NCBI RefSeq assembly: GCF_032854445.1
Contig: NC_088303.1
Location: 3,109,501 to 3,173,500, forward strand
Length of the DNA stretch: 64,000 nucleotides
Direction of reading: 5' to 3'
Source of the DNA: Liolophura sinensis
Taxonomy: Eukaryota; Mollusca; Polyplacophora; Chitonida; Chitonidae
Position 1 is the first letter of the stretch. Each line of letters begins with the position of its first letter. The notes under the pieces are model-generated. The model was given only the letters and a program-made list of their open reading frames with translations. It had not been told where the DNA came from and did no database searches. The position numbers and the translations under genes were made by a program. Shown in pieces: positions 5,257 through 40,336 of the stretch.

Positions 5257-5444
5257 TTACATTTTATTGATCCTCTCCTCCTGTTTGCTCAGTTCCTCTG
5301 CAATGACCTTGGGAAGATCGCAGCCAACCTGATCACGGAAGAATGCCTTACTCTCATGGATGTCATCCAGCCAGTAATCTTTGGGCACACTGAAGAGAGT
5401 GTCCCAGTCAACTGGCTTCTCCAATCCATCTAGCTTCATTGAAC
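5257..5444 (-). CDS. PCK1-like: PEPCK A exon 13 (C-terminus)
   Basis: The acceptor AG is at 5445-5446. The first two bases complete a Gly codon begun in exon 12. The exon encodes residues 573-633, including [19 protein letters not shown], and ends INKM-stop, as in other animal PEPCKs. Confidence 0.92.
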
Positions 5445-8400: not shown

Positions 8401-11400
8401 TCAACAGGTGTCTCTCAGGACTACCTGTGTGGATCCCTAATAATAATGATCAAAACGATTTCAACAGGTGTCTCTCAGGACTATCAGAGTGGATCCCTAA
8501 TAATAATGATCCAAATGATTTCAACACGTGTCTCTCAGGACTACCTGAGTGGATCCCTAATAATAATGATCCAAATGATTTCAACAGATGTCTCTCAGGA
8601 CTACCTGTGTGGATCCCTAATAATGATGATCGAAACGATTTCAACGGGTGTCCCGCAGGACTACCTGTGTGGATCCCTAATAATAATGATCCAAACAATT
8701 TCAACAGGTGTCTCTCAGGACTACCTGTGCGGATCCCTAATAATAATGATTCAGATGATTTCAACAGGTGTCTCTCAGGACTATCAGAGTGGATCCCTAA
8801 AAATAATGATCCAAATGATTTCAACAGGTGTCTCTCAGGACTAGCTGTGTGGATCCCTAATAATAATGATCCAAATGATTTCAACACGTGTCTCTCAGGA
8901 CTACCTGAGTGGATCCCTAATAAAAAACACCCAAACGATTTCAACAGGTGTCTCTCAGGACTACCTGTGTGGATCCCTAATAATAATGATCCAAATGATT
9001 TCAATACGTGTCTCTCAGGACTTATTGAGTGGATCCCTAATAAAAAACATCCAAACGATTTCAACAGGTGTCTCTCAGGACTACCAGAGTGGATCCCTCA
9101 TAATAGTGATCCAAACGATTTCAACAGGTGTCTCGCACGACTACCTGTGCGGATCCCCAATAATAATAATCCAAACGATTTCAACGGGTGTCCCGCAGGA
9201 CTACATGTACCTGCGTAGATCCCTAATTATAAATGTCTGACCACACAATGTACAACTGACTGTAATACAGCGAGCATCAACATGGCGCACTACTGACTGC
9301 AGAGCAGCCATAGATTTAACATTTAACATAAAAACTTCCACAGACTTCTCCACACAGGCCAGCTATAGGATCACCCAATGATCTTACCCTTCTTAGGCAG
9401 GAGGCCTATGGGAGAAGGGACAGCGATGTCCTCGCCGTCACAGCGCCGCAGGATCCAGTCCAGCACACGGATGTTCTCACCAAATCCAGGCCACAAGAAC
9501 TGACCATCCTCGTCAAGGCGGAACCAGTTAACATGGAAGATCTTTGGCATCTGAGGAAGGCAAAACCAAAATCTTTAGTCCTTGTATACAACGGTAATTT
9601 TTTCGTTTTCATTGTATAGCTTTAGAATGAATTGCTTGATGTCAAATCTACAGTACAACAGACAAAACCTGGCATATTTGCATTTAGACAACCAGGATAT
9701 CAATTCAGGCAGGAAAGAAGTCAGAAATTATTAAACTGGATTTAAATTTGGCTCTATTGTTGCTAAATGCTGTACAAGAAATGTTTGCTATGGTGGTAAT
9801 TTTATTGGTTCAGGAAATCTGAGTGCCCGCAGTAAAAACCAACTTTTGGCAAGTTGATGAGGAGTTCTACCCTTTGTACAAGCTTGCATGCCATACTGGT
9901 GAAAGACAAGTAGTCTTTAACTCATTCACTCTCGGGAGCGGCTTTAGCCGCAGCCTAGCCATACCCTTGGTCCTCGCGAGCGGTACTTCATTTCCCCTCA
10001 AGCGGCTTGAGACGCATAAAAAAACTCTGACTGGTCAATTTTTGCAGGGAAAATGGGATTTTTTGGGAGCTAAACCAGTCAAATACTGCCTCATTAGACC
10101 CTATGGATGCCACACGAACCTTGTTTGTAGATTTTCAATGGTTGTAAGCGATAAAAAGGCGCGAAAAAATGTGGAGAAAATTCGACGACTTTCGTTCAGG
10201 CGTTTGCCGAAATGGCGGCCTCAAGTACAGCCGACGATTTCCAGGGCTTTATAAATAAAGACATTTGAGACGATTTCGATTCGGATATTTCGGTTTCACA
10301 TGTTAGCAGCGACATGGAAGAGTCTTCTGACAAAGAGGAATTAATTTTAGGTCAACTGCGCTCCAGAATTAACAAGAGACGCGAACTTGAACTATCGGAA
10401 ACTGTACCGGTAACAACAACAACGCGAACTATGGAAACGCAATTTTTACTCAAATCGAGTGATACATTGTTCTAATAAAGTGATTAATTTTATGTTTACA
10501 CGCTTCACAGAGCAAAAAAACCAACTGCCACCGAATATCTGATGGTGGAATTATCCAAAAATCATAAAACAAAAACTTCTAATTTTTTTAGTGCAAAATT
10601 GTATTTCTGCTGTGGCCTGCTGGGGACCAAGCGGTGAACAGGGTTGCAGTAGTGAGGGCTGTATGACGTTGTGGTAGCAAATGAGATAAATGGTCTAATA
10701 TACAGTGTAAGCACAATATTGTTGTAGTCATAGTTAATGAACATAACACTGTGCAAACGAGGAGCTAGATTTGAACAACTGATCCATTGTCTCATTACCG
10801 ACTAACTGTTCCTTGTGACAATGCTGAGACTGTAAGTGGAGTGTTCTTCAGCTGATGTCTGCCAAGTTTCACTGTACAGGATGTGACAGAGACAATTACA
10901 AGCGACAACTTCCAATCTTGCTAACTGCATCAAACACGCAGGAGAAGATATGTAGCTATCAAGAGCAGTGTAATGCCACACACAGGTGCCTGTGGATTAC
11001 CTTGTGAGGAGGTCTGTTCAGGCCCAGCCAGTGATCCAGGTACTTGCCAAAGTTGTAACCCATGAAAGGTCTCATGGCCATAGGATCATGCATGATCTTT
11101 TTCCCTGCAATGACAATACAAGATATTCATCACTACATTCCGCACAAACAGACTGATGCATTACACATTAAAATTTTCAGGAGCTTTTGGTCCACAAGGC
11201 TTAAACAATGAATATCCATTAAATATTAGGTTACGAAGCAATAATATAAAACAATATAACTCTTAAATTAGGACTCCAGCCAATAACGCCTTTTGTGAAA
11301 TTGTCCCAAGATCAAAATAATTTTTCTGTACACCACTTTATCATCTTGATTTCAAAGGATTCTGTTCAACTCTACACTCCAATCTCATGGATATTTAATA

Positions 11401-14400
11401 CATCGAGGAAGTGAGAAGAGACGCTTACTCCAGTCTCACTAATGTAGGCATGGGAAAAGTGGAAGGAGAAACCACCTTCAGTTTTATGGGTAAGGAAGTG
11501 GGAATGGAAAAAAAAAAACACTTCCTGCTCCACCATGCCAACATTTTAATATTACTCCAGCCAATCAAGTGAGAGATTATTTTCCCAGGCACTGGTGGTT
11601 TTCAATAATAACCCTTCAAACCACACATTTAAAACAAATTGCGACCTACTTGAATCAAATGCTTACAGCCAGCATTAAAAGACAGATGGACAGGTGTACA
11701 GCTACACAGCAACTCTATACTGTAGGGTTGAGACACAACCTTCTCACCTTTGAACTCTGCTGCAGCTGTTGCCTCAGACTTGACACAGGCTCCCAGCATC
11801 ACTCCATGCTCCCAGCTGTTAGATTCTATCACCAGTGGCACACCTGAGGAAAATGAACAGTAGGTGAGATACAAGCACATCAAAGGCTCAAGGAATGACA
11901 GGGAATATTTTTGAGTACTGCACCAAAAAAACCTGGTCTAATAAAAAACCACTGATGGCAGTAAGTAAATCTACACTGAAGTCATCTTTTCTGTCACAGG
12001 CAGAGAAATCGACAGATCAGCGGCCATGTTCACAAGTTATGCCTATAAGGGAACATGATAAAATAGTTTAGTCAGGTTACCTATAAGGGAAGATGATAAA
12101 ATAGTTTAGTCAGGTTTGTGAGTTTGTATGCTCAGCAACCCATAAAACAGCTCTCTGCAGTGGGAGATTTCCTTGAGACAAACCGTCGCTCCTGTGAGGC
12201 CTGTAACACCAATATTTCTGATGCTCGGTTTCCCGATTGCTTTGCCGGTGGAGTTTCATTTAACCTACATAAGTAAACAACTGGGCTGGCATCCTGATCA
12301 CTTGCATCACCTCTACAGTGTGAAAGGGACAAGAAGAGACAACCACTCACTGGTTTGTTTACACCAAAGTAGATATCAGATCTACAAATAATCTTGTAGA
12401 TTCCAAATTAAGACTGCTGAATGTGAATCATGCTGCTGTATCTGTCCTTCACAGAACCCTGACAATAGCACTGTTAACAGATGTATGACAAATGTTAATT
12501 AGGTCATATGGGATATGTCAACTGTCTGCTGTTGATCGGTCAATGGGCAGAGATGTACAAATAATATCAGGTTTGAGAGAAAAATGGCACAATGAGCATC
12601 TGGAAAATTTTAAAACTCTCATAAACCATTTTTTTTTTAATCTGGGAAACAGTAAGTAGACAATTTTGAATGTTTCAAGTGTTGAACTAGCATTGAAAAT
12701 CTAGGCAGAAAATACATGTCATGTTCTCTTCACCTGTTGGTCGACGCCCACCAAAAATGATGGCACTGATTGGCACCCCTTTAGGATCCTCCCACTTGGG
12801 GTGAATGATGGGGCATTGACTAGCTGGGGCACAAAATCGAGAGTTGGGGTGGGCTGCCAATCCTGGGTCCCCAATTCTCCACTTTTCACCAAGCCATGTT
12901 GTGATGCTAATATGCTGCACAAGAGAACAAGAATTAGCCAAAAATTACAACAGAAATACACAAGCCCCCACAACACCTTGTACTGGATGGTATTTCAAGA
13001 AATGATCTTACAATGACTAGCATGTCTAGAATTTGTTACCTATTTTGCATTCACCACTATGGCAAACTTTCCAAGCTTAAACAATACATGAAAAGGATTT
13101 ATAAAAGAAAGACTACGTCTGTATGCCAAATGAAGAAAATTATCCCCTGGAATTATTGTTAAAAAGATTTCACTTTGACTTATCCCACTGCTGCCACTGC
13201 CTCAGGCCTGTTCCCCTGAGTTATATATACGGGGATGTGCTGCATGGCTACATAGCTCACTTTGTCCACTTCATCTTCCATCCCTTCCCAGAAGAAGCCA
13301 CCATCAGCTGTCTCAGCCACATTAGTGAAGATGGAGTTGCTCTGGAATGTCTTCATGGCATTGGGGTTGGTCTTATAGTTAGTGCCTGGTGCCACGCCAA
13401 AGAAACCTGCTTCTGGGTTGATGCCATGGAGGACGCCATTCTCATCAAACTTCATCCAGGCTATATCATCACCTACACAAAGGCCACAACAATGGGCACA
13501 TCTTATAGGTCAACTTACTTGTTCTACACCAAACTCGAGAGTCTAGATCAAGTAAATGGAGGAAGAATTACGTGATCCTATGAAATCCTGTGACATTTCA
13601 TCCATCATGTAACTTACTTTTAAACAATTTATTTTTCAACAATATCTTTACCTTGTTTATTGTAATATCACTTTAAACAATATTTAGCTCACATAATGAC
13701 AGTATCTTCCTTGCACCAGACCAATCCAAATACAGACATATTTACTGGGCACTATGACTAAAATGATATGCAGACAACACCACATGACACCACAACGGGT
13801 GCCACTTGCAGTAAATGACCCCCAAACTTTTCCCGTGACTAAGACGCACATGAATAATTTTTCATGGTTGATTATTATCCTACTGGGAAAATGTAAGTTT
13901 TATTACCAAAAGTAATATTTTGTTACATTTATTTGACTTTAACAAATGCACTTTTTTGTGAAGTATTTGAGATCATTTGCATGTAAACATATGTTTAATC
14001 ATTAATTTCTACTGCTGGTGTTGTACCATGTACTCAGGACTGACTGTCTTACAGGACAGTAGGCAGATTTATGGGTGGAGGAAACCAAGTTAAGGCCTAA
14101 GAAAACCAGATTAAGACTGATGGAAACCACGATAATAAAGCCTAAGGAAACCAGGTTAATAAAAGCCTCAGGAAACCAGGTTAATAAAAGCCTAATAAAC
14201 CTGGTTAAGGCCTAAGGACACCAGGTAAATAAAGGCCTAAGGACACCAGGTTAAGGCCTAAGGAAACCAGGTTACAGCCTATGAAGACCAGGTTAAAAAA
14301 TACCTGAAGAAAGCAGGTTAAGGCCTAACGAAACCAAGTCGATGCCTACATGTACATGTGCTGACAGGTATAATCAGACTCACCCACACAGCGGACCTGA

Positions 14401-17400
14401 TACTCGGGTAAGGTGGCTTGGATCATTGCTAGGTTGGTCTTGCCACAGGCGCTGGGAAATGCAGCAGCAACAAACTTCTCTTCCCCTTTCTTATTTGTGA
14501 TGCCCATAATCTGTAATGGCCAAAAGCAATTCAATTTTTGTATGTTAGTTACAACTTTGGGTACACACAAATAAATAAAATATAAACTAAAAAAATCTAT
14601 ATATTATTCCCCCCTCCCCACCCCCCGATAAAGCAACTTTGAAAGCATTTAAGGTAATGAAATTATTTTATATCACAAATGTTTTTTCTGGCAATTCAAG
14701 CTCTACAACATCTCTTAATTATCTTCAACTTTCTGTAAGAAGAATGCATCAAAATGACAACCTATACACAAGTAACGTGTGTAGGATGACAACCTGCAAA
14801 GACCATTCCTACCTTTGACTGTAATTTTTCAGCCAAAATCAATATTTCACTTACACGATGGAGGTCATGCTCATGGCTGGAGGAACCTCCATGCCCTGGA
14901 GGAACCTTGGCTCCTCATGCAGATTTAGGTCACTATTAACATTCTTTGACATACTAAGGCTTTTTTATTGTTTTTTTTTTTAAGCTACTCTGCCCAGTGG
15001 TTTCTTGCACTAGTGGAAGCCTTCTTGTACTAACCAACATGTGTTCTGCCATCCAGCCTTCATCTCTGGCAATTGCACTGGCAATTCGTAGAGCAAAGCA
15101 CTTTTTTCCGAGCAGGGAATTCCCACCATACCCGCTACCATAAGAGGCAACCTTTCGCTCTTCTGGAAATGTGCAATCAAGATCTTCTCCGGATTACATG
15201 GCCAATGGTTTACTACTTTGACTTCAAGGAAAAAAACAATTCAATGGTTAATAAGGCAGCAAATATTAAAGCATCAGAAATTTATATCCATACTTTGCAA
15301 AAAATATTTACAGATTTCAAAAATCTGCAAAATGTATAAAGGGACATTCACATTCAAATGGACCTTCCAATGACAGGCATTTCAGAAATTTGAGCGCACC
15401 ATGCATAACATTTCAACATGCATTTTTAAAACATTATTAGATAATTATCCTTTCTGTGGGCATTGTACTGTTACATGGTAATGCCAATTTGTTTTTGTGT
15501 AACTCTTCTGTCTGGCTCGCTACATTTCTCAGCCAGCCACTCAAGATTAGCTGGTTTCGCCACAAATCCCTAAAACTTTTCCCTACATAATCCCCTGTGA
15601 AAGATGCGCCATGAACAGTGTAAGTTCACTGCATATATAAGGTGTAAAATTTGTGTTTTTTATGCATGTACTTCTTCCTGCACAATTTTCATTCTTTATA
15701 ATGTAAATGACTCGTAGGTCTGCATACTGTAACTCAGCGCTGCAACAGCTATGCAATGTTATCCTTGATTTAAATGCACGGATACGTAAGCTGTAATAAC
15801 GGCACTGTCACTGTTCTCTGACTTGTTTTGATTCTTACTGTTGTTAAATGAGATAGTTTGTTTAAGTTTTATGCTCCTTTATTGCCAGTACATTTATAGA
15901 TTTTCGGCCGTGTAAAATGCATGTTGTCTCTGTTCAAAATTAGTAGTGTAGCCCGTATACTTTGTGACACATTGGACATTTCTACTCAGATTCCTCTACC
16001 TTTTCTTTTTCTCTCACCTTTCATACAAATGGTATAATGGTTCTTTTCTTTTCTTTGACCTGTAGGTTTTTACCCTAATTACACTCTTTGGAACAGTGGA
16101 GGGTCTTCACCCAGATAAATAAAGTTTTGTCACTCATCCAGTGTGCTGATAGAAAAGGAAGGCCCGGGGTTAACTAAACTGCTACATTACTCCAGAGTTG
16201 ATGCAGTACAGACATATAAGCACTGAGTACTGATAATCTGTACGGTCATATGAACAACAACTGTGGCTGCATGTTTTGGTACAGCATTACAAGTCAACAC
16301 AGATCCTCTCTGTGGACACAACATATAAGCACTGAGTACTGATAATCTGTACGGTCATATGAACAATAACTGTGGCTGCATGTTTTGGTACAGCATTACA
16401 AGTCAACACAGATCTTCTCTGTGGACACAACATATAAGCACTGAGTACTGATAATCTGTACGGTCATATGAACAATAACTGTGGCTGCATGTTTTGGTAC
16501 AGCATTACAAGTCAACACAGATCCTCTCTGTGGACACAACATATAAGCACTGAGTACTGATAATCTGTACGATCATATGAACAATAACTGTGGCTGCATG
16601 TTTTGGTACAGCATTACAAGTCAACACAGATCTTCTCTGTGGACACAACATACAAGCACTGAGTACTGATAATCTGTATGGTCATATGAACAACAACTGT
16701 GGCTGCATGTTTTGGTACAGCATTACAAGTCAACACAGATCTTCTCTGTGGACACAAAATATAAACACTGAGTACTGATAATCTGTACGGTCATATGAAC
16801 AATAACTGTGGCTGCATGTTTTGGTACAGCATTACAAGTCAACACAGATCTTCTCTGTGAACACAACATATAAGCACCGAGTACTGATAATCTGTATGGT
16901 CATATGAACAATAACTGTGGCTGCATGTTTTGGTACAGCATTACAAGTCAACACAGATCCTCTCTGTGGACACAACATACAAGCACTGAGTACTGATAAT
17001 CTGTATGGTCATACGAACAATAACTGTGGCTGCATGTTTTGGTACAGCATTACAAGTCAACACAGATCTTCTCTGTGGACACAACATATAAGCACCGAGT
17101 ACTGATAATCTGTACGGTCATATGAACAATAACTGGGGCTGCATGTTTTGGTACAGCATTACAAGTCAACACAGATCTTCTCTGTGGACACAACATATAA
17201 GCACCGAGTACTGATAATCTGTACGGTCATATGAACAATAACTGTGACTGCATGTTTTGGTACAGCATTACAAGTCAACACAGATCTTCTCTGTGGACAC
17301 AACATATAAGCACTGAGTACTGATAATCTGTATGGTCATATGAACAATAACTGGGGCTGCATGTTTTGGTACAGCATTACAAGTCAACACAGATCCTCTC

Positions 17401-20400
17401 TGTGGACACAACATATAAGCACCGAGTACTGATAATCTGTACGGTCATATGAACAATAACTGTGGCTGCATGTTTTGGTACAGCATTACAAGTCAACACA
17501 GATCTTCTCTGTGGACACAACATATAAGCACCGAGTACTGATAATCTGTACGGTCATGTGAACAACAACTGTGGCTGCATGTTTTGGTACAGCATTATAA
17601 GTCAACACAGATCTTCTCTGTGGACACAACATATAAGCACTGAGTACTGATAATCTGTACGGTCATATGAACAATAACTGTGGCTGCATGTTTTGGTACA
17701 GCATTACAAGTCAACACAGATCTTCTCTGTGGACACAACATATAAGCACTGAGTACTGATAATCTGTATGGTCATATGAACAATAACTGTGGCTGCATGT
17801 TTTGGTACAGCATTACAAGTCAACACAGATCTTCTCTGTGGACACAACATATAAGCACTGAGTACTGATAATCTGTATGGTCATATGAACAATAACTGTG
17901 GCTGCATGTTTTGGTACAGCATTACAAGTCAACACAGATCCTCTCTGTGGACACAACATATAAGCACTGAGTACTGATAATCTGTACGGTCATATGAACA
18001 ATAACTGTGGCGGCATGTTTTGGTAGAGCATTACAAGTCAACACAGATCTTCTCTGTGGACACAACATATAAGCACTGAGTACTGATAATCTGTACGGTC
18101 ATATGAACAATAACTGTGGCTGCATGTTTTGGTACAGCATTACAAGTCAACACAGATCTTCTCTGTGGACACAACATATAAGCACTGAGTACTGATAATC
18201 TGTATGGTCATATGAACAATAACTGTGGCTGCATGTTTTGGTACAGCATTACAAGTCAACACAGATCTTCTCTGTGGACACAACATGTAAGCACTGAGTA
18301 CTGATAATCTGTATGGTCATATGAACAATAACTGTGGCTGCATGTTTTGGTACAGCATTACAAGTCAACACAGATCCTCTCTGTGGACACAACATATAAG
18401 CACTGAGTACTGATAATCTGTACGGTCATATGAACAATAACTGTGGCGGCATGTTTTGGTAGAGCATTACAAATCAACACAGATCTTCTCTGTGGACACA
18501 ACATATAAGCACTGAGTACTGATAATCTGTACGGTCATATGAACAATAACTGTGGCTGCATGTTTTGGTACAGCATTACAAGTCAACACAGATCTTCTCT
18601 GTGGACACAACATATAAGCACTGAGTACTGATAATCTGTATGGTCATATGAACAACAACTGAACACAACATATAAGCACCGAGTACTGATAATCTGTACG
18701 GTCATATGAACAATAACTGTGGCTGCATGTTTTGGTACAGCATTACAAGTCAACACAGATCTTCTCTGTGGACACAACATATAAGCACTGAGTACTGATA
18801 ATCTGTATGGTCATACGAACAATAACTGTGGCTGCATGTTTTGGTACAGCATTACAAGTCAACACAGATCCTCTCTGTGGACACAACATATAAGCACTGA
18901 GTACTGATAATCTGTATGGTCATATGAACAACAACTGTGGCTGCATGTTTTGGTACAGCATTACAAGTCAACACAGATCCTCTCTGTGGACACAACATAT
19001 AAGCACTGAGTACTGATAATCTGTACGGTCATATGAACAATAACTGTGACTGCATGTTTTGGTACAGCATTACAAGTCAACACAGATCCTCTCTGTGGAC
19101 ACAACATATAAGCACCGAGTACTGATAATCTGTACGGTCATATGAACAATAACTGTGGCTGCATGTTTTGGTACAGCATTACAAGTCAACACAGATCTTC
19201 TCTGTGGACACAACATATAAGCACCGAGTACTGATAATCTGTACGGTCATATGAACAACAACTGTGGCTGCATGTTTTGGTACAGCATTATAAGTCAACA
19301 CAGATCTTCTCTGTGGACACAACATATAAGCACTGAGTACTGACAATCTGTACGGTCATATGAACAATAACTGTGGCTGCATGTTTTGGTACAGCATTAC
19401 AAGTCAACACAGATCTTCTCTGTGGACACAACATATAAGCACTGAGTACTGATAATCTGTATGGTCATATGAACAATAACTGTGGCTGCATGTTTTGGTA
19501 CAGCATTACAAGTCAACACAGATCTTCTCTGTGGACACAACATATAAGCACTGAGTACTGATAATCTGTATGGTCATATGAACAATAACTGTGGCTGCAT
19601 GTTTTGGTACAGCATTACAAGTCAACACAGATCCTCTCTGTGGACACAACATATAAGCACCGAGTACTGATAATCTGTACGGTCATATGAACAACAACTG
19701 TGGCTGCATGTTTTGGTACAGCATTACAAGTCAACACAGATCTTCTCTGTGGACACAACATATAAGCACCGAGTACTGATAATCTGTACGGTCATATGAA
19801 CAATAACTGTGGCTGCATGTTTTGGTACAGCATTACAAGTCAACACAGATCTTCTCTGTGGACACAACATATAAGCACTGAGTACTGATAATCTGTATGG
19901 TCATACGAACAATAACTGTGGCTGCATGTTTTGGTACAGCATTACAAGTCAACACAGATCCTCTCTGTGGACACAACATATAAGCACTGAGTACTGATAA
20001 TCTGTATGGTCATATGAACAACAACTGTGGCTGCATGTTTTGGTACAGCATTACAAGTCAACACAGATCCTCTCTGTGGACACAACATATAAGCACTGAG
20101 TACTGATAATCTGTATGGTCATATGAACAATAACTGTGGCTGCATGTTTCAGTGAAGCATTACAAGTCAACACAGATCTTCTCTGTGAACACAACATATA
20201 AGCACCGAGTACTGATAATCTGTACGGTCATATGAACAACAACTGTGGCTGCATGTTTTGGTACAGCATTACAAGTCAACACAGATCTTCTCTGTGGACA
20301 CAACATATAAGCACTGAGTACTGATAATCTGAACGATCATACGAACAATAACTGTGGCTGCATGTTTTGGTACAGCATTACAAGTCAACACAGATCTTCT

Positions 20401-23400
20401 CTGTGGACACAACATATAAGCACTGAGTACTGATAATCTGTATGGTCATACGAACAATAACTGTGGCTGCATGTTTTGGTACAGCATTACAAGTCAACAC
20501 AGATCCTCTCTGTGGACACAACATATAAGCACTGAGTACTGATAATCTGTACGGTCATATGAACAACAACTGTGGCTGCATGTTTTGGTACAGCATTACA
20601 AGTCAACACAGATCTTCTCTGTGGACACAACATATAAGCACTGAGTACTGATAATCTGTATGGTCATATGAACAATAACTGTGGCTGCATGTTTTGGTAC
20701 AGCATTACAAGTCAACACAGATCCTCTCTGTGGACACAACATATAAGCACTGAGTACTGATAATCTGTATGGTCATATGAACAACAACTGTGGCTGCATG
20801 TTTTGGTACAGCATTACAAGTCAACACAGATCCTCTCTGTGGACACAACATACAAGCACTGAGTACTGATAATCTGTACGGTCATATGAACAATAACTGT
20901 GGCTGCATGTTTCAGTGAAGCATTACAAGTCAACACAGATCTTCTCTGTGAACACAACATATAAGCACCGAGTACTGATAATCTGTACGGTCATATGAAC
21001 AACAACTGTGGCTGCATGTTTTGGTACAGCATTACAAGTCAACACAGATCTTCTCTGTGGACACAACATATAAGCACTGAGTACTGATAATCTGTACGGT
21101 CATATGAACAATAACTGTGGCTGCATGTTTTGGTACAGCATTACAAGTCAACACAGATCTTCTCTGTGGACACAACATATAAGCACTGAGTACTGATAAT
21201 CTGTATGGTCATACGAACAATAACTGTGGCTGCATGTTTTGGTACAGCATTACAAGTCAACACAGATCTTCTCTGTGGACACAACATACAAGCACTGAGT
21301 ACTGATAATCTGTATGGTCATATGAACAACAACTGTGGCTGCATGTTTTGGTACAGCATTACAAGTCAACACAGATCTTCTCTGTGGACACAACATATAA
21401 GCACCGAGTACTGATAATCTGTACCGTCATATGAACAATAACTGTGGCTGCATGTTTCAGTGAAGCATTACAGGTCAACACAGACATTATTTTCAGTCTT
21501 TTCTTCCTGCTTGAAGGCCATACAGGTAAGATGGATGTGAGTCACTTACACTGATGAGGTCTGGGGCATCCCATGGAATGAAGACACTGGACGAACTCCC
21601 CGTTACCGAGCGCCTCCCACACATGAAGTGACACACGGGTCATTATCCTCATGCACAGCAGCACGTAGTTAGAGTCCGTCAGCTGGACGCCGATTTTACT
21701 GAGAGGAGAGCCTATGGGGCCCATGCTGAATGGGATGACATACATCATACGACCTGGTCAGAAAAAACAAACAACTAAAGCACCTGCCATAAATAAGTTG
21801 TTATGCTGGTTTCACTTTTCGCACTTGCATACCATCCATATTTTATTGCTCTATTCAACAACTTATTTATTTATTTGATTGGTGTTTTATGCCGCACTCA
21901 AGAATATTTCGCTTATACGACGGCGGCCAGCATTATGGTGGGTGGAAACCGGGCAGAGCCCGGAGGAAACCCACAGAGAGGAAGCCAGCAAGAGCTGGAC
22001 TTGAACTCACAGTGACCGCATTGGTGAGACTCCTGAGTCATTACGCTGCGCTAGCGCGCTAACCAACTGAGCCACGGAGGCCCCCACTCTAGTCAACAAA
22101 CTTTCACTTACCACTATACCATCACTTTGAAGCAGTGTGTGTTGTCTTTCAACTGAAACAGATCTGCTTCCAGTTCCCCTGACAGTAATAGATTTTATGA
22201 GATTTATTTTCTGACCTTAAGAAAAATAGCTTCTGAAAAAAAAGGTATAAAATCAGGACTGTCCAGCAAACACCAGTCTCACCTACGATACAGGATCAGG
22301 GCTGTCCAGCTAACACAGGTCTCATCTGTGATAAAGAATTAGGACTGTCCAGCCAACATTGGTCTTACCTCCCATACAGTCGGGACTGTCCAGCTAACAA
22401 CAGTCTCACCTGCCACACATGGTCAGGACTGTCTAGCTAACATTGGTCTCACCTGCCACACATGGTCAGGGCTGTCCAGCTAACAACAGTCCCCCCTGCA
22501 ACACAGTCAGTACTGTCCCCCTAACAACAGTCTCACCTGCCACATATGGTCAGGACTGTCCAGCTAACATTGGTCTCACCTGTGATACATAGTCTGGACT
22601 GTTCAGCTAACAACAGTCTCACCTGCCACATATGGGCAGGACTGTCCCGCTAACATTGGTCTCACCTGCCACACATGGTCAGGGCTGTCCAGCTAACAAC
22701 AGTCCCCCCTGCGACACAGTCAGGACTGCCCAGCTAACAACTGTCTCACCTGCCACACATGGTCAGGACTGTCCAGCTAACATTGGTCTCACTTGCCACA
22801 CATGGTCTGGACTGTCCAGCTAACAACAGTCTCACCTGCCACACATGGTCAGGGCTGTCGCGCTAACAACACTCTCCTCCCTGCAACACAGTCAGGACTG
22901 TCCAGCTAACAACAGTCCTCCCTGCGACACAGTCAGGACTGTCCAGCTAACAACAGTCCCCCCTGCGACACATGGTCAGGACTGTCCAGCTAACAACAGT
23001 CTCACTTGCCACACATGGTCAGGGCTATCCAGCTAACAACTGTCTCACCTGCCACACATGGTCAGGGCTGTCCAGCTAACAACAGTCCCCCCTGCGACAC
23101 AGTCAGGACTGCCCAGCCAACAACAGTCTCACCTGCCACACATGGTCAGGACTGTCCCCCTAACAACAGTCTCACTTGCCACACATGGTCAGGACTGTCC
23201 CCCTAACAACAGTCTCACTTGCCACACATGGTCAGGACTATCCCGCTAGCAACAGTCTCACTTGCCACACATGGTCAGGACTGTCCCCCTAACAACAGTC
23301 TCACCTGCCACACATGGTCAGGACTGTCCTGCTAACAACAGTCCCCCCTGCGACACAGTCAGGACTGTCCAGCTAACAACAGTCTCACTTGCCACACATG

Positions 23401-26400
23401 GTCAGGACTGTCCCCCTAACAACAGTCTCACCTGCCATACATGGTCAGGACTGTTCCGCTAACATTGGTCTCACCTGTGATATATAGTCTGGACTGTCCA
23501 GCTAACAACTGTCTCACTTGCCACACATGGTCAGGACTGTCTAGCTAACAACAGTCTCACCTGCAACACATGGTCAGGACTGTCCAGCTAACAACTGTCT
23601 CACCTGCCACACATGGTCAGTACTGTCCAGCTAACAACAGTCTCCCTTGCCACACATGGTCAGGACTGTCCCGCTAACACTGGTCTCACCTGCCACACGG
23701 TGAGGACTGTCCCACTAACACTGGTCTCACCTGCCACACATGGTCAGGATTGTCCCGCTTACACTGATCTCACCTGTGATATAGGATCAGGACTGTCCCG
23801 CTAACAACAGTCTCACCTACCACACAGTCAGGACTGTCCAGCTAACACTCACCTGCCATACAGCCAGGGAACCGCTTGTCCATCTCTTTGGCCATGTCTT
23901 CAGGAGACATCCACTGGCCCATGATTCCCTTCACTCCTTCCTTCACATGAGGGACAGTGTCGTATTTCTCTTTGGTGGTAATCCAGGTCTTTGACTCCAC
24001 CCTGGCCACATCTGCTGGATCAGTGCGGCAGATATAACTGAAAGAAAAAAAAAAAGAGTCTTCACGCCTTGGAATTAAGCGACTGGCTCATAAAATTACC
24101 CCCATACAGCTGTCCATACACTGCATAGAACATACTGATGTTCAACACAAGAATAAATGATTAAGTCTTAACACCAATTTCCATCTTATCATGGAGACAG
24201 AAACAAAGACTAGCACACAGGTGACTTAAACCCAGTTAGTGCTAGGAGATGCCCATCATTTGTGATAGGAGTAACTATTGAACATGTGATAAGAGGAACT
24301 ATTGAACATGTGATAAGAGGAACTACTGAACATGTGATAGGAGTAACTACTGAGCTTGTGATAGGAAAGACTACTGAGCTTGTGATAGGCGTGACTACTG
24401 AGCTTGTCATAGGCGTAACTACTGAACTTGCCATAGGCATAACTACTGAGCTTGTGATAGGAAAGACTACTGAGCTTGTGATAGGCGTGACTACTGAGCT
24501 TGTCATAGGCGTAACTACTGAACTTGTGATAGGCGTGACTACTGAGCTTGTGATAGGCGTGACTACTGAGCTTGTGATAGGCTTGACTACTGAGCTTGTC
24601 ATAGGCGTAACCACTGAGCTTGTGATAAGCATAACTACTGAACTTGCGATAGGCATAACTACTGAACTTGTCATAGGCGTGACTACTGAGCTTGTGATAG
24701 GAGTCTACTGAGATTGTGATAAACATGACTACTGAGCTTGTGATAGGTGTGACTACTGAGCTTGTGATAGGCATGACTAGTGAGCTTGTGATAGGCGTGA
24801 CTACTGAGCTTGTGATAGGAGTAACTACTGAGCTTGTGATAGGCATGATTACTGAGCTTGTGATAGGTGTGACTACTGAGCTTGTGATAGGAGTAACTAC
24901 TGAGCTTGTGATAGGCGTGACTACTGAGCTTGTGATAGGAGAGACTTCTAAGATTGTGATAAACGTGACTAATGAGCTTGTGATAGGTGTGAATACTGAG
25001 CTTGTGATAGGCATAACAACTGAACTTGTGATAGGAATAATCTGCCCCCAATTGCTGTTGATGTGCAAGACATCCAATTACAGCACATTTCAATATGGAC
25101 CAGACCTAGCTGCATTTATTGTCTTGACCTAGGCGCATTTATGTGCAGGCCTTGTGCCATTTATAGTCCAGGCCTTGTGCTATTTATGGCCCTAGCCCAG
25201 CTACATTAACTGCCCTGGCCTAGTTGCAGTCATGTTCCTGAATTTGGTGCTGACCAAGCTGTATTTATGGTCCTGACCAAGCTGTATCTATGGTCCTGAC
25301 CAAGCTGTATTTATGGTCCTGACCCAGTTGCATTTATGGTCCTGACCTAGCTATATTTATGTTCCCGACCAAGCTGTATTTATGGTCCCAACCCAATTGC
25401 ATTTATGATCCTGACCCAGTTGTATTTATGGTCCTGACCCAGTTGCATTTATGGTCCTGACCAAGCTGTATCTATGGTCCTGACCAAGCTGTATTTATGG
25501 TCTTGACCCAGTTGCATTTATGGTCCTGACCAAGCTGTATTTATGTTCCCGACCAAGCTGTATTTATGGTCCTGACCCAGTTGCATTTATGGTCCTAACC
25601 AAGCTGTATTTGTGGTCCTGACCTAGCTGTACTTATGGTTCGGACATAGCTGCATTGATGGTAATGAACCCAGTTGCACAGAGCTAGTTGTATTTATGGT
25701 CCTAACCTAGCCGTATTTATGGTCTTGACCTAGGCGCATTTATGGTCCTGACCCAGTTGCATTTTTGGTCCTGACCTAGCTGTACTTATGGTCCTGACCA
25801 AGCTGTATTTATGGTCCTAACCAAGCTGCATTTATGTTCCTGACCAAGCTGTATTTATGTTCCTGACCTAGCTGTATTTATGGTCCTGACCTAGCTGTAT
25901 TTATGGTCCTGACCAAGCTGTATTTATGTTCCTGACCTAGATGCATTTTTGGTCCTGACCTAGCTATGTACGCAGACATAATTGCATTGATGGTAATGAA
26001 CCCAATTTCACAAAGCGGGGTAACACATTTCTTTATTGTACATTGGTCGCATGAAATTTTGTACGTCACTATTACCGAACCATTGTCCTATATGTGCAAT
26101 TATCAACATGACATCTTTGTGAAACTGGGTCTTGACCTAGCTGCAATTATGGTCCTGGCCTAGCAAGATTTATGAAGATTCCTAGTAGCCTCCAGTCATA
26201 TAAAGACATGCATAAATACACTGCCTTTTTTCAGACTTCTCAAACAAAATGTTTAAGCGGCAAACAAACACATCTCCATGCATATCACTGACCGATCCAA
26301 ACAACATACATGTATTAAGCACTACGGAATTTCATAGGCCTTAGATGTCACTGATGTGCTGAAATAAGTATTCTTGAAAAAAAAAAAAGCAAAAAAAACA

Positions 26401-28814
26401 TTTAGGGTCTTAATGAATTCAGGAACTTGGAATTCACTGCTCAGAAAGGCACTGGTTCAAATCCTCCACACGTAGTCCTCTCACTGTCACCGCTCAGAAA
26501 GGCACTGGTTCAAATCCTCCACACGTACTCCTCTCACTGTTACCCAGTCAACCACTGTACCACTAAAATGACTAACTCTTTTGAAAAGCGTTAAAGAGTA
26601 GCATTTACAATGGCACCCTTTCAAGATGATATTAGTCAGAATCTGTCAAACAAGTATTTTATGTGAAATCATTGAAAACTTAAACACTGCTTTCCTACGC
26701 ATAACTGACCAGTTATTGTACTTGGTTAGCCGACTCAGTGTTCCTCTCTCCAGCAACTTGTGGATGACTTCCTCTGCCTCCTCGTGCGACCCATCACAGA
26801 TATAAATACCACGGGGCCGACACAGCTTCACCTGCAATCAAAAATACAGGTGTGAATAACAGGTAAATCAAGCATCACCTGAAACCAAACTTAAACACAT
26901 GAACAAGTAACTCAATTGTCACCTCGGTCAAGTGCAGGACAAACTTCACCAAATGATACTATAGTTGTGCTATAGGGTGCTGGGTCAAAATGTCATGTAC
27001 TAGTTATTATAATAATTAAATAACAGCCTTAATTCCTCATCCTTCAGTGCAACTTAAGAGAATTTTTAACTTGATTACATTTGATTTCTTTGGAATTTCA
27101 AGGCTTCACAAAAAGAATAGTTTCACCAGTCAGAGTTTTACCAGTGATTTTTTTTTTTTTTTTTTTTTTTTTTTGATTGGTGTTTTACGCCGTACTCAAG
27201 AATATTTCACTTATACGACGGCGGCCAGCATTATGGTGGGTGGAAACCGGGCACAGCCCGGGGGAAACCCATGACCATCCGCAGGTTGCTGGCAGACCTT
27301 CCCACTTACGGCCGGAGAGGAAGCCAGCATGAGCTGGACTTGAACTCACAGCGACCGCATTGGTGAGAGGCTCCTGGGTCATTACGCTGCGCTAGCGCGC
27401 TAACCGACTGAGCCACGGAGGCCCCCCAGTGATTTTCAAACCCTTTGCAGATATGCAAAAGGTAAATGCAGCACTATTCTTTGTATATCAGACATGATTG
27501 TGGTGAACCAAGAAAATAGCTGAAATTTACTATCATAGCCCAAAAAGGCCGGGGTCCAGGGGCCGCCTAGGCCCCGGAAGCTAGAAAAATCTGCGTGGCT
27601 GAAAATGGATTTTGGGACGTTTTTGGCTATTAAAATCAAACTAGAATCCTGTAAAATATGAAGAAAACCAACACTGTTTTCCGACTTACAGATTTTCCCA
27701 TCTGCTTTGTCCCCACAGAACTCTAATCTTCTGGACAGAGAGAAGAATGCATTTTTGTACCAAAGCCAAAATTTAATACATGTAACAGATTTTTTCTGGT
27801 TCAGACATTGTTAGTTGTGTACAGGTCATTTTCAGTCAAATGTTTAGATTGGCATGTTATGGCACAGAATACAACTGTCCAGTTTTTCATTCAATGGCAC
27901 CATGGTGTTCCACTCTGGCTTTCTTGGCTGCCTTTTGACACAACTCCTTGGCTTTCCTTTTCGTCAAAGTGCTCTGTGCCCTAATGTCCAGCTGTTTCTG
28001 TTTTTCTGTGGCAACTGATTTCTTCTCTTCAAGAATGGCCTTATACTGGCTGAATGATCGTTTGACATTCCTCACAAGAGTGTGATCAACCTTATCATGG
28101 AGATGGTCCCTCTTCTTGAAATACTCCACAGCAGATTTACCAGAAGCTTTCAAACTATATTTTATGTTTTGTATGGCTTGGTAGGTTTCAATGTTGAGTC
28201 TCCCAGATTTGGCATCAAAATCTTTATCTGATCGATCCACGATACTCCGAGATGTTGCCGCCATTTTTGACCGGGCTGGCTCTGCTCCTGCCTTCGAATA
28301 ATGGTATCTTGTTCCCGATTGGTTGAAACAGTTCGGCTTAACGAAACACACGATCTGACTGGACAATAGACTCCATTCAGATAACATTATAACCTCCGGC
28401 AATGCCAGATTTCGGTAGCCATGCATCGGCAAATTGACAGAATCTTCGACTTAATTTTGAGGAAATAAATCGGAACTTTACAAAATGTTACTACACAGAA
28501 AAAAAACGGAAAACAGGTAAATTAATCGAAACTGAACAAAGAAAAAGCGGAATTCCGCTAAAAAGCGGAAAAAAATCATGTCTGGTATATTCAGACAGAA
28601 GGTTCTAAATTAATCTTTTATGCAAACAATTTTACATACTGCTAAGATTACAAAGTATAGTGTTTTTTTTTTTTTCACTTACGGACTGAGCAATGAACCT
28701 CTGCACTTTTATTGGTAATCGCTGGAAGTCTCCTTTTGCAATGGGCACCGATCCCAAATGTTTGATCCGTACCTCGTGGATCTCGAAGAAATCTTGATCT
28801 TCATCAACCTCCAT
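5257..28814 (-). CDS. PCK1-like: PEPCK gene A: GTP phosphoenolpyruvate carboxykinase, cytosolic type (12 coding exons, one frame break)
   Basis: The enzyme converts oxaloacetate plus GTP to phosphoenolpyruvate, CO2 and GDP, the entry step of gluconeogenesis. Twelve minus-strand exons with GT-AG borders and matching phases give about 633 residues once one missing base in exon 6 is allowed for (animal cytosolic PEPCK is about 620-640). Family landmarks: DVAR substrate loop in exon 4; [15 protein letters not shown] in exon 6; the P-loop [12 protein letters not shown] with Cys299, Lys301 and Thr302 in exon 7; GDDIAWM (metal-binding Asp) at the start of exon 8; HPNSRF around residues 412-417; and the guanine-binding FHVNWF in exon 12. 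The N-terminus ([10 protein letters not shown]) is acidic and does not resemble a mitochondrial presequence, so a cytosolic location is inferred. Odd points: Phe481 replaces the usual His of the active-site lid (AAAEHKG); the introns are filled with minisatellites; exon 6 has a 1-base deletion. The gene may therefore be functional with an assembly error, or decaying. Confidence 0.93.
6531..9224. repeat. 60 bp minisatellite, about 45 units, in the last intron of gene A
   Basis: About 45 head-to-tail units of exactly 60 bases, differing only by substitutions; I see no indel inside the array. On the plus strand the unit includes TTTCAACAGGTGTCTCTCAG, a GGATCC site in almost every unit, and TAATAATGATCCAAA. 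Variant blocks (TAAAAAACATCC, ACCTACGTGG, ATCAGAGTGG, CAATAGATG) recur in clusters, suggesting local re-duplication. Because 60 is a multiple of three, long ORFs (up to 651 codons) stay open in several frames on both strands. I treat these as arithmetic by-products, since the array lies between two PEPCK exons. Confidence 0.97.
9388..9550 (-). CDS. PCK1-like: PEPCK A exon 12
   Basis: Starts [10 protein letters not shown] after acceptor CTCAG and ends PKKG before donor GTAAGATC; phase 0 in, phase 1 out. It holds the guanine-binding NWF (residues 525-527) and [13 protein letters not shown], which are diagnostic for GTP-type PEPCK. Confidence 0.95.
9917..10490 (+). mobile_element. Possible piggyBac-like fragment
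   Basis: A TTAA (9917-9920) begins a block that differs in composition from its surroundings. It has a GCGGCTTTAGCCGC palindrome at 9939-9952 and, from about 10212, a reading frame starting [13 protein letters not shown]. That frame has a stop after INKDI and then continues as an acidic, serine-rich stretch ([20 protein letters not shown]). An acidic N-terminus beside a TTAA end recalls piggyBac transposases, but no catalytic domain and no second terminal repeat are present. It lies in intron 11 of gene A. Confidence 0.28.
11001..11104 (-). CDS. PCK1-like: PEPCK A exon 11
   Basis: Encodes [19 protein letters not shown] then [13 protein letters not shown], after acceptor TTGCAG and before donor GTAATCC; phase 1 in, phase 0 out. 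Gene B has this segment fused with the next two in a single exon. Confidence 0.94.
11748..11843 (-). CDS. PCK1-like: PEPCK A exon 10 (active-site lid)
   Basis: 96 bases, the same length as the gene B counterpart. It encodes [20 protein letters not shown] then [11 protein letters not shown], followed by a split Gly. The lid carries Phe481 where gene B and vertebrate PEPCKs have His, and Lys472 where they have Arg (MRSEA). Confidence 0.94.
12734..12914 (-). CDS. PCK1-like: PEPCK A exon 9
   Basis: Starts [12 protein letters not shown] after GTGCAG and ends GGRRPT plus a split Gly before GTGAAG. It includes [16 protein letters not shown]. The 5' border (after DEVDK) is not shared with gene B, which has its intron inside HPNS/RF instead. 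Confidence 0.94.
13261..13472 (-). CDS. PCK1-like: PEPCK A exon 8
   Basis: Begins with the second and third bases of a Gly codon and then [12 protein letters not shown]. It continues through [17 protein letters not shown] and [16 protein letters not shown] and ends DEVDK before donor GTGAGC. The first Asp pair includes the metal ligand of the family. Gene B has an intron inside this region, after VAPG. Confidence 0.95.
14080..14340. repeat. Imperfect about 25 bp tandem repeat in gene A intron 7
   Basis: Eight to ten imperfect units built on GGAAACCAGGTTAATAAAAG followed by CCTAA. The array ends about 45 bases from the donor of exon 7. Confidence 0.8.
14384..14510 (-). CDS. PCK1-like: PEPCK A exon 7 (kinase/P-loop)
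   Basis: Encodes [20 protein letters not shown] then ACGKTNLAM, the PEPCK P-loop with the reactive Cys. It runs from acceptor TTACAG to donor GTGAGTC; phase 0 in, phase 1 out (CVG split). Confidence 0.96.
15035..15221 (-). CDS. PCK1-like: PEPCK A exon 6, with a 1-base frame break
   Basis: 187 bases, against 188 in the homologous gene B exon. The first part reads [18 protein letters not shown] in one frame. The rest reads [20 protein letters not shown] through EGWMAEHML in the next frame. The switch falls at a C run near 15165, where two C's stand in place of the three needed. Splice sites on both sides and the flanking exons fit the family exactly. Either a real frameshift or a homopolymer error in the assembly. 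Confidence 0.9.
16203..21480. repeat. 109 bp minisatellite, about 48 units, in gene A intron 5
   Basis: Head-to-tail units of 109 bases, each with AGCACTGAGTACTGATAATC, GGCTGCATGTTTTGGTACAG and CAACACAGATCTTCTCTGTG. One unit near 18655 is shortened by about 51 bases. Rare variants recur at exact multiples of 109: CGGCATG...GTAGAGC at 18011 and 18447 (4 units apart), and TTTCAGTGAAG at about 20141, 20904 and 21449 (7 and 5 units). This shows multi-unit duplications inside the array. Confidence 0.97.
21550..21753 (-). CDS. PCK1-like: PEPCK A exon 5
   Basis: 204 bases, as in gene B. It encodes [20 protein letters not shown], then [10 protein letters not shown] and [15 protein letters not shown], between acceptor GACCAG and donor GTAAGTG. 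The surrounding codons are split at phase 1 on both sides. Confidence 0.95.
21863..22085 (-). mobile_element. tRNA-derived SINE, internally deleted copy
   Basis: Read on the minus strand, it starts with a tRNA-like head (GGCCTCCGTGGCTCAGTTGG, A-box-like; GAGTTCAAGTCC, B-box-like). It ends with the CGGCATAAAACACCAATCAA tail and an ATAA-rich 3' end. About 40 bases present in the copy at 27148-27427 are missing. An imperfect target duplication (TCAACAACTT / TCAACAAACTT) flanks it. Confidence 0.85.
22258..23852. repeat. 43 bp minisatellite carrying decoy 5' splice sites, abutting exon 4 of gene A
   Basis: About 37 units of roughly 41-43 bases. On the gene A sense (minus) strand, a typical unit contains TGTGTGGCAGGTGAGACTGT followed by TGTTAGCTGGACAGTCCTGAC. 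The real exon 4 donor region reads TGTATGGCAG/GTGAG and continues TGTTAGCTGGACAGTCCTGAC. So the unit matches the exon-intron junction, including the last exon bases. By eye about 18 units keep an exact CAGGTGA; others have CAAGTGAG. The array probably arose by amplification of this junction. Confidence 0.9.
23853..24037 (-). CDS. PCK1-like: PEPCK A exon 4
   Basis: 185 bases, as in gene B. It encodes [18 protein letters not shown] through [20 protein letters not shown] and PGCMA plus a split Gly, so the reading continues [14 protein letters not shown]. The acceptor is CTTTCAG and the donor GGCAG/GTGAGTG. DVAR carries the substrate-binding Arg of the family. The donor touches a minisatellite built from the same sequence. 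Confidence 0.95.
24250..25045. repeat. 24 bp minisatellite in gene A intron 3
   Basis: About 33 units of GACTACTGAGCTTGTGATAG plus GCGT, with variants CTTGTCATAGG and GAACTTG. The period is a multiple of three, which opens spurious ORFs of 130-270 codons on both strands. It lies about 210 bases upstream of the exon 4 acceptor. Confidence 0.95.
25083..26165. repeat. 23 bp minisatellite in gene A intron 3
   Basis: About 45 imperfect units of TTTATGGTCCTGACCAAGCT plus GTA, with variants CCCAGTTGCA and CCTAGCTGTA. It follows the 24 bp array almost directly. Between about 25960 and 26130 a non-repeat insert interrupts the units. Confidence 0.93.
26425..26530. repeat. Two-copy direct duplication, about 51 bp
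   Basis: CAGAAAGGCACTGGTTCAAA followed by TCCTCCACACGTA and CTCCTCTCACTGT-like text occurs twice in tandem, nearly identical. Confidence 0.8.
26710..26831 (-). CDS. PCK1-like: PEPCK A exon 3
   Basis: Encodes [20 protein letters not shown], then the helix before TKYNN, ending with two bases of a Cys codon (NNC). Acceptor TTGCAG, donor GTCAGTT. Gene B has no intron at the 5' border. Confidence 0.92.
27148..27427 (-). mobile_element. Full-length tRNA-derived SINE with target-site duplication
   Basis: On the minus strand it begins GGGCCTCCGTGGCTCAGTCG (A-box-like), has GAGTTCAAGTCC (B-box-like), and ends in a tail containing ACGGCGTAAAACACCAATC and a run of about 26 A's. CCAGTGATTTT lies on both sides (27141-27151 and 27426-27436), the mark of target-primed insertion. 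It is the most complete copy in the window and lies in intron 2 of gene A. Confidence 0.93.
27887..28432 (-). CDS. Unidentified 125-181 codon ORF inside gene A intron 1/2 region
   Basis: The likely start is the inner ATG at 28264 ([17 protein letters not shown]). The frame is open to 27887 and gives a Lys-rich, helical protein ([20 protein letters not shown], then a charged coiled-coil-like tail ending in a Lys/Arg-rich stretch). The composition looks like real protein, unlike the repeat-derived ORFs nearby. It lies on the same strand as PEPCK A, between exons 2 and 3. I do not recognise the family. It may be a transposon-derived tail, a retrocopy or a nested single-exon gene. Confidence 0.4.
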   Translation of the reverse strand: MPMHGYRNLALPEVIMLSEWSLLSSQIVCFVKPNCFNQSGTRYHYSKAGAEPARSKMAATSRSIVDRSDKDFDAKSGRLNIETYQAIQNIKYSLKASGKSAVEYFKKRDHLHDKVDHTLVRNVKRSFSQYKAILEEKKSVATEKQKQLDIRAQSTLTKRKAKELCQKAAKKARVEHHGAIE

Positions 28815-30800: not shown

Positions 30801-31528
30801 TAGGACAGTGTGTACAGTACACTATGGTATTGTTCATTAGATGGATTAGAGCACTTGCAATGGAGAAAACAATTGCCCCTTAAGCAAAAAAAAAATTCAT
30901 TCTGATGCTAAGTCATGGCTCCAGAATCTGTATATTATCAGGGTCTGCGGGAATTAGGCTCCTGTCCACACTCAGGTCACCTTACATGTATGTACTTGCT
31001 CAGAAAATGTTGAACTAATACCTAATGAATCTTGAAAAAGGAACTTGTGAGAGGTGGCGGTAAAAATTTAAGATCGCTGATGTAGTACTCATTTTGCAGC
31101 CACGCTATTTAACACAAACCAAAAAACAATGTCCAGTTTTGCTGAAATACCTAGTTACCATTGGAAGGAGCACAGAATTCATAATGCAACTAATAGAATA
31201 ACATAGTGAGCTCACAGGGGTGACAAAAAAAAGGTGCAACACACACGGTTGAAGCCCATTTTTGTTATAAATCAGCCAATAACTGAAAGGCATTATTACT
31301 TCCAGTAAAAGATTTGATGCATATCGGTCATGAAAATTGAAGGACTTAATTTAGTTGTTCCTCTCTAAAATTGTCAAAATTTGAATTCCAAGCGCCTCAA
31401 ATACTCACAACATGAATGGTGTTTACTGGTACTTGTATATGAGCTATGTATAGCTTCATGCAAAGTCTTGGTTCTTAACTTGCAATAAACTATTGTTTTA
31501 TTAGTAAATATTTGTGCTGATGTACTTA

Positions 31529-39872: not shown

Positions 39873-40336
39873 CTACAATTTCTCTGACTCCACACGCGTG
39901 TGCAACTTCTCCAACTCCTCCCAGATCTCATCTGGGACGTCTTCATTCACCTGTTCCTCAAGATATTTCCTGATGTCCTTGACTTCCCGTTCCCAGAACT
40001 CTTTGGGCAGATCAAAGAGGGCTTGCATGTCGACACTTCCTTCCAAGCCCTCCATGAGAAGGGAGTTTGGTTTGGGCACATAACCGATCATGCTCTTCTC
40101 GGCAATGTCCTCCCCGTCAACTCTGCGACAAATCCAGTCCAACACACGAGCATTCTCCCCAAAACCTGGCCAAATGAACTTCCCCTGATCATTCTTGCGG
40201 AACCAGTTAACATGAAAGATTTTTGGCATGGTCGCATTAGGCCGTTTCTTCAAACACAGCCAGTGCTTCATATAATGGCCAAAATTGTAACCGAAGAAAG
40301 GCCTCATGGCAAACGGGTCGTGCATGATGACTTTAC
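39873..40336 (-). CDS. PCK2-like: PEPCK B exon 10 (C-terminus)
   Basis: 464 bases from acceptor ATTTTAG to the TAG stop. It reads [19 protein letters not shown] through [27 protein letters not shown] and [18 protein letters not shown] to ESEKL-stop. It corresponds to exons 11, 12 and 13 of gene A without their two introns. Confidence 0.97.

Follow-up and report, generated by a model that had tools for sequence, protein, structure and literature searches.

The genome of the chiton Liolophura sinensis (609 Mb; RefSeq assembly GCF_032854445.1) holds two tandem genes for GTP-dependent phosphoenolpyruvate carboxykinase (GTP-PEPCK), here called A and B, both on the minus strand of a 64,000-nucleotide stretch of contig NC_088303.1 (positions 3,109,501 to 3,173,500; the window, in whose numbering all coordinates below are given unless a contig is named). 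An intron of gene A opens with a minisatellite whose repeat unit copies the exon-intron junction at which the array lies, 5' splice site (donor) included. The account that we favour, and consider probable, is that the array is a minisatellite born from that junction and was tolerated because the real donor, also the strongest, stays with the copy attached to the exon; the decoy donors in the other copies would be mainly bystanders. A segment of ~40 bp across the gene A exon-intron boundary would have been tandemly duplicated and the duplicated junction then amplified by unequal exchange or conversion; since the copy joined to the full exon would keep the real donor, the extra copies would be intronic and removed by splicing, and hence tolerated; occasional use of a near decoy would run into an in-frame stop codon and yield a non-productive transcript.

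The array spans 22253..23847 of the minus strand, where Tandem Repeats Finder (TRF) reports a period of 43, 37.5 copies and 82% matches. A unit list with 38 anchors resolves it into 37 units of 41 or 43 bp, donor outward (running from high to low coordinates); the 38th anchor continues into unique sequence. Each unit is made up of about 17 nt of exon (the PGCMA codons) and about 24 nt of intron, donor included, and the first of them reads TCCTGACTGTGTGGTAG|GTGAGACTGTTGTTAGC. The true 5' splice site, CAG|GTGAGT, lies at 23847..23855, with the last base of the exon at 23853 and the +1 G at 23852; on the minus strand the 3' end of the exon is TTCCCTGGCTGTATGGCAG and the start of the intron is GTGAGTGTTAGCTGGACAGTCCTGA. 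An earlier reading of this DNA, made without database searches (the sequence-only reading), thus saw correctly a minisatellite of ~43 bp units next to the real donor. It also had the array ending exactly at that donor: TRF places the array start at +6, but homology begins 17 nt inside the exon (23853..23869, codons P-G-C-M-A), so that the likeness extends into the exon rather than stopping at its edge. Similarly, the unit does match the junction and the head of the intron, as that reading held, but six extra bases, ACTGTT, follow GTGAG in the units and are absent at the real junction; likeness to the intron head resumes beyond them. Divergence from the consensus is 0.19-0.25 at units 1, 3 and 34-36, among the highest values and near both ends of the array, and reaches 0.21 in inner units; unit-to-unit identity has a weak peak at an offset of five units (0.879, compared with 0.838-0.872).

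That the exon-intron boundary itself was amplified, also a proposal of the sequence-only reading, is borne out by units 0 and 34, in which 11 of 14 exon-tail positions match with CAG left out. The background, taken from the minus-strand sequence of the same window, has a mean of 3.3 and attains 11 or more at a frequency of 5e-5. The mean over the 37 units is 7.5/14, a low value mainly because the common 43-bp type, with its 2 extra bases, falls out of register in an ungapped comparison. The local alignment of unit 34 covers the final 18 nt of the exon and needs a single gap, a result equalled by 1 of 2000 shuffled exons, which speaks for a unit related to the junction; unit 0 aligns to the last 16 nt (13/2000), and the common 41-bp and 43-bp types are equalled by 10/2000 and 51/2000 shuffled exons, respectively. 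These figures make it very improbable that an intronic satellite merely came to resemble a donor, by chance or convergence, and happens to end there. The donor consensus is short, to be sure, and 9 of the 37 units lack GT, but the likeness runs 14 nt past CAG into conserved codons, it continues through the intron head beyond the six-base difference, and at eight other loci the exon tail agrees with the repeat, in register, at 11 to 13 of 13 positions. Coincidental similarity was rejected on the exon-tail homology.

The exon that seeded the array (23853..24037, minus strand) is recognized by a phmmer match to human cytosolic PEPCK (1khb_A, E 1.5e-14), by tblastn with the gene B exon and by its junction contexts. 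It had been labelled exon 4 of gene A; it is indeed an exon of that gene, a GTP-PEPCK, but its number is uncertain, and it is the second gene A exon that the PEPCK_N model matches in the window. The next exon, at 21550..21753, is joined to it through a phase-1 codon, G|GT (tblastn, junction contexts). The PGCM codons of the exon tail are common to human cytosolic PEPCK and gene B; therefore the exon is the source and the array is the copy, and copying from array to exon is rejected on the same ground. The homologous exon of gene B ends at 48458 (AGAG|GTAACA) and no array follows it.

A whole-genome search with a unit 22-mer at up to 3 mismatches returned 29 matches, 27 of them within the array; the two outside it each differ at 3 positions, and the reversed control yielded a single match. 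A DNA search with the unit returned 6 matches, all in the array (one candidate place scored). Neither search found a second genomic locus. A dispersed or genome-wide satellite family, which the sequence-only reading had named as the finding that would undo its proposal, is accordingly rejected. So is a coding repeat: 41 and 43 bp are not multiples of 3, and a TAG stands in frame at +9. Ratchet points of recursive splicing carry a pyrimidine tract directly ahead of CAG|GT; the common unit, GACCATGTGTGGCAG|GTGAG, has no such tract by eye, and a recursive splice site was rejected as well.

The decoy donors of units 36 to 0 lie at 22282..23816. The donor word CAGGTRAG is exact in 18 of the 37 units, which agrees with the earlier estimate by eye of about 18; NAGGTRAG is found in 21 and GT at the donor position in 28. 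Many units are thus donor-like. Scored one by one by U1 pairing energy (scoring with a 5' splice-site model had been suggested), none equals the true donor: -14.1 kcal/mol, as compared with at most -11.1 kcal/mol for the decoys. Reading on from the exon, the frame meets TAG at +9 to +11 (23842..23844), and so would any transcript that used a decoy; decoy use could therefore give only a premature-stop transcript and not a longer intact protein. This arrangement invites the thought that the array works: that the donor copies bind U1 small nuclear ribonucleoprotein (snRNP) or compete with the real donor, copy number setting the amount of productive PEPCK-A mRNA while nonsense-mediated decay removes the decoy products. 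The abundance of GT and of strong donor words suits such a role, as does the stop codon that makes every decoy product unproductive, and the nine donor columns of the array mismatch at 0.078, relative to 0.111 elsewhere in the unit. At the human ABCA7 intron 18 variable number tandem repeat (VNTR), according to the accessible part of the report, use of the donor one unit downstream generates an out-of-frame transcript, retention of that unit amounts to ~2% of transcripts, blocking decay raises the level of such transcripts, and longer VNTRs go with lower expression (PMC5954066); however, the retention does not change with VNTR length (PMC5954066). GT has been lost in 9 of the 37 PEPCK-A units, moreover, gene B does without an array, and gene A may be frameshifted (see below). 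We consider a functional decoy array unlikely.

Arrays of the same build occur at other loci. A donor-word sample of 26 arrays was assembled from the matches listed for CAGGTRAG (15 arrays; 100 of 2880 matches) and for CAGGTGAGT (11 further arrays of 14; 100 of 673 matches). Exons were looked for by eye in the ~210-240 nt ahead of the first exact motif, and the array start was re-inspected for L001, L010, L014, L015 and L037 only. At eight of the 26 loci (L006, L011, L014, L038, L039, L042, L044 and L046) the first donor closes an open exon whose tail is copied in the unit: over the 13 exon positions from -16 to -4 (shifted one base further upstream for L011 and L046), 11 to 13 match the repeat consensus, and other registers reach at most 8. 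The junction for this comparison was picked by eye, and the match is partly built in, since the repeat itself defines the array; what stands independently is the location of the first unit in a coding exon. At five of the eight, the exon is recognized by a family or structure match: an SNF2-related domain at L011 (Pfam, E 5.2e-6), an iron hydrogenase at L038 (Pfam, E 1.6e-11), 2-oxoglutarate dehydrogenase at L039 (PDB, E 2.2e-16), an ABCC transporter at L042 (E 1.9e-13) and an SPT3 homologue at L044 (E 1.1e-4). L006 has neither a PDB match nor a significant Pfam match, and L014 and L046, searched in Pfam, have no significant match there. The consensus unit of L014 has lost GT at the donor position. 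As an observation apart, the L014 array (C1:4344932-4349932) has a 51-bp unit and an open frame that runs from the exon end into the first unit; part of that array may be coding. Unit length is a multiple of 3 in 3 of the 9 arrays formed by the focal one and these eight, as expected by chance.

Other members of the sample are less clear. At L037 a fucosidase family matches weakly (5.4e-5, below the Pfam cut-off), and the exon tail is not copied (4/13); L010 (7/13) and L040 (5/13) have exons by eye that match their units weakly, with no Pfam or PDB match for L010; L007 has what appears to be a small exon; and at the other 14 of the 26 arrays no exon was seen by eye in the stretch read. A further locus, L047, taken for the donor in its unit, adjoins an open exon and scores 8/13, no better than its best other register; we take the exon to resemble that of a deoxyribose-phosphate aldolase, and it has no Pfam or PDB match. 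For controls, 20 arrays were fetched of the 22 among the matches listed for the G/T-swapped word CAGTGRAG and tested for protein families, with exon-tail comparison for L025 alone. Scanned singly, 1 of 19 matched Pfam (L025; the stretch of L035 is too short to scan), compared with 3 of 26 donor arrays under the same mechanical longest-frame rule, a small difference; when the 20 controls were packed together and scanned in three frames, no family was found, so that L025 was missed as well. L025 (C1:19589648-19591448) turns out, control though it is, to be a donor-junction array at a peptidase M24 family exon, with the donor AAG|GTACGT and 7/13 exon-tail matches. Control loci L019-L021 resemble copies of one another. 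An acceptor sample (20 arrays fetched of the 22 among the matches listed for TTTYCAGG) includes two, by eye, that end at an apparent exon start, L056 (tetraspanin, E 0.0042, below the cut-off) and L058 (an open frame only); these are mirror-image candidates, with a unit holding the acceptor and the start of the exon.

Motif counts over the whole genome bear on whether donors are favoured as birthplaces. A word occurring three times at 15-45 bp spacing (a triple) was counted against the same pattern reversed, as overlapping hits in which large arrays weigh heavily. CAGGTRAG yields 2880 triples against 630 reversed, CAGGTGAGT 673 against 28, CAGGTAAGT 264 against 158 and AAGGTAAGT 127 against 68; for the control word CAGTGRAG the counts are 919 and 722. 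Counted singly, CAGGTGAGT outnumbers its reverse 3.7-fold (10,120 vs 2,743), and AAGGTAAGT is rarer than its reverse (7,553 vs 10,249). The matches listed may be incomplete even within the region that they span: one array among the CAGGTGAGT triples listed is absent from the CAGGTGAGT singles listed. It follows from a donor-specific mutational hotspot that exon ends resembling CAGGTGAG would be prone to tandem duplication, and junctions favoured birthplaces rather than merely tolerant ones; sequence resembling a recombination core, or R-loops, could be the cause. The CAGGTGAGT triples argue for a hotspot even relative to singles (673/10120 vs 28/2743, in contrast to 127/7553 vs 68/10249 for AAGGTAAGT), as does the adjoining of an exon in the expected sense by 8 of 26 donor-word but 2 of 20 acceptor-word arrays. 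On the other side, large arrays dominate these overlapping hits (a single array accounts for 42 CAGGTAAGT triple rows among the matches listed), the excess of CAGGTAAGT is slight, and the acceptor word TTTYCAGG is enriched too, at 713 against 134 reversed, in a comparison that takes the words apart from their frequencies at the real donors and acceptors of the genome. A hotspot of this kind is unlikely, on our estimate. The triple counts were not relied on as proof of a genome-wide class, since they are dominated by large arrays and since the excess over the reversed pattern is less than 2-fold for AAGGTAAGT and CAGGTAAGT.

Gene A (5272..26831, minus strand) comprises 11 exon matches (PEPCK domain models; tblastn with gene B), and its tandem paralogue gene B (39894..49178, minus strand) comprises 9, between 49178 and 39894; the matched pieces of this diverged pair share 36 to 81% protein identity. 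With nine TRF arrays entered, tandem arrays make up 11,306 of the 21,560 bp that gene A spans (52%) and 57 of the 9,285 bp of gene B (<1%). Near 15065-15210 the match of a gene A exon to gene B changes frame, an apparent one-base frameshift. A copy that is losing its function, in which arrays are no longer selected against, would account for the frameshift and for the contrast in array content between the two genes, and would make the junction array uninformative on tolerance in working genes. But the remaining gene A exon matches are open, the domain matches reach the end of the protein, the frameshift is possibly an assembly error, and like arrays adjoin conserved exons of other genes (a comparison of exons, which leaves the intactness of those genes aside). 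We consider decay of gene A an improbable explanation.

Other minisatellites are abundant in gene A and in the loci fetched elsewhere in the genome. The last intron of gene A holds a 60-bp array of 44.7 copies (6526-9208), whose period is divisible by 3; long open frames accompany it, of 666 amino acids on the minus strand and 621 on the plus strand. A 109-bp array of ~48 copies with 96-97% matches (16212-21484) stops 65 bp short of the next exon's donor, and inspection by eye shows no copy of that neighbouring donor in its unit. Outside the gene, a 15-bp array of 98 copies (29343-30806) has a strong GC skew. A short tRNA-like repeat at 21860-22090, presumably akin to a molluscan short interspersed nuclear element (SINE), has by eye a similar counterpart near 48030-48130 in gene B. 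ARAGORN called no tRNA in the window, at this repeat or elsewhere, and with no Rfam match at gathering scores either, an RNA gene reading was dropped.

The absence of an array at the homologous junction of gene B and the similar arrays at 8 of 26 sampled loci count for a junction-born minisatellite. Several considerations weigh against it. That the real donor is the one in use is a supposition from frame and pairing strength. The frameshift in gene A may denote a decaying copy, or an assembly error there. The higher incidence of exon-adjoining arrays in the donor than in the acceptor sample could have a donor-specific cause, and CAGGTGAGT is arrayed far above other donor words, an excess not expected if arrays were simply tolerated at any donor. 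At ABCA7, VNTR length goes with changes of splicing and expression, in the part of the report at hand (PMC5954066). Donor conservation, finally, gives a mixed result. Thirteen arrays were compared: the focal one, seven of the eight strong loci (L014, whose consensus has no donor match, was dropped), L010, L025, L037, L040 and L047. Pooled, the GT columns mismatch more often (48/390) than the other columns (545/6515), the nine donor columns together standing at 159/1755; taken one at a time, 10 of the 13 arrays have fewer mismatches in the nine donor columns than elsewhere, and 7 of the 13 have fewer in the GT pair. These figures show neither selection nor its absence, because the arrays were picked by exact donor words and their units share ancestry.

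If the favoured account is right, minisatellites next to conserved exons can arise from a donor junction, and each such array, in which a single exon is followed by many 5' splice sites that are nearly identical, constitutes a natural test of splice-site choice. The choice made by the spliceosome among near-equal donors, and the effect of copy number on it, could be read from the RNA of the animal at several genes, as against the one disease locus, ABCA7. A wider proposition, which we hold only tentatively and think doubtful, is that minisatellites in this genome have arisen again and again at splice donors, CAG|GTGAGT most of all, through a donor-biased mutational process, so that dozens of genes or more would carry arrays with a unit made of exon tail, donor and intron head. 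Were that so, near-identical 5' splice sites would be in natural competition throughout the genome, and copy number may in some cases set the output of the gene.

The kind of array described here is already known, from human IFI6 and ABCA7, so that the contention of the sequence-only reading that no named system resembles it does not stand; what is new is recurrence across genes of one genome. The literature searched, with subscription papers mostly outside its scope, yielded no account of arrays of this kind in molluscs, or of a genome-wide class of them. A 1995 study of IFI6 (6-16) reportedly described a minisatellite with multiple splice donors. Two downstream repeat units of IFI6 serve as donors, according to the accessible portion of a later account (PMC4526556). 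IFI6 thus resembles PEPCK-A in having a donor-bearing minisatellite; as far as that account goes, its repeat-unit donors lead to different protein isoforms, whereas the PEPCK-A decoys lead to a stop codon. Zhuo et al. (2007), to go by the title, are said to have derived human introns from tandem arrays. Their title also links tandem arrays to splicing, in the direction from arrays to introns; at PEPCK-A the array derives from a junction that was already there. In human genes within segmental duplications, internal tandem repeats at exon-intron boundaries alter splicing, with 27 intron modifications given in the available part of a 2009 report (PMC2812944). These are minisatellites at exon-intron boundaries, like the PEPCK-A array, but are defined there by variation between paralogues, being kept or spliced out, and not by copies of a donor (PMC2812944). 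Earthworm metallothionein genes have large intronic minisatellites, which the portion of the report consulted does not describe as donor copies (PMC12783039). The closest parallel is the human ABCA7 VNTR, whose tandem unit includes the exon 18 donor and whose array directly flanks the exon; it is polymorphic, and longer arrays go with more skipping of exon 19 and lower expression (PMC5954066, as available in part). In both genes the donor of the adjoining exon lies inside the tandem unit and the array adjoins that exon. The ABCA7 unit, of 25 bp, is described in the accessible text as starting at GT, and no copied exon tail is described there; the PEPCK-A unit, known from the sequence of one assembly, is 41 or 43 bp long and carries 17 nt of its exon.

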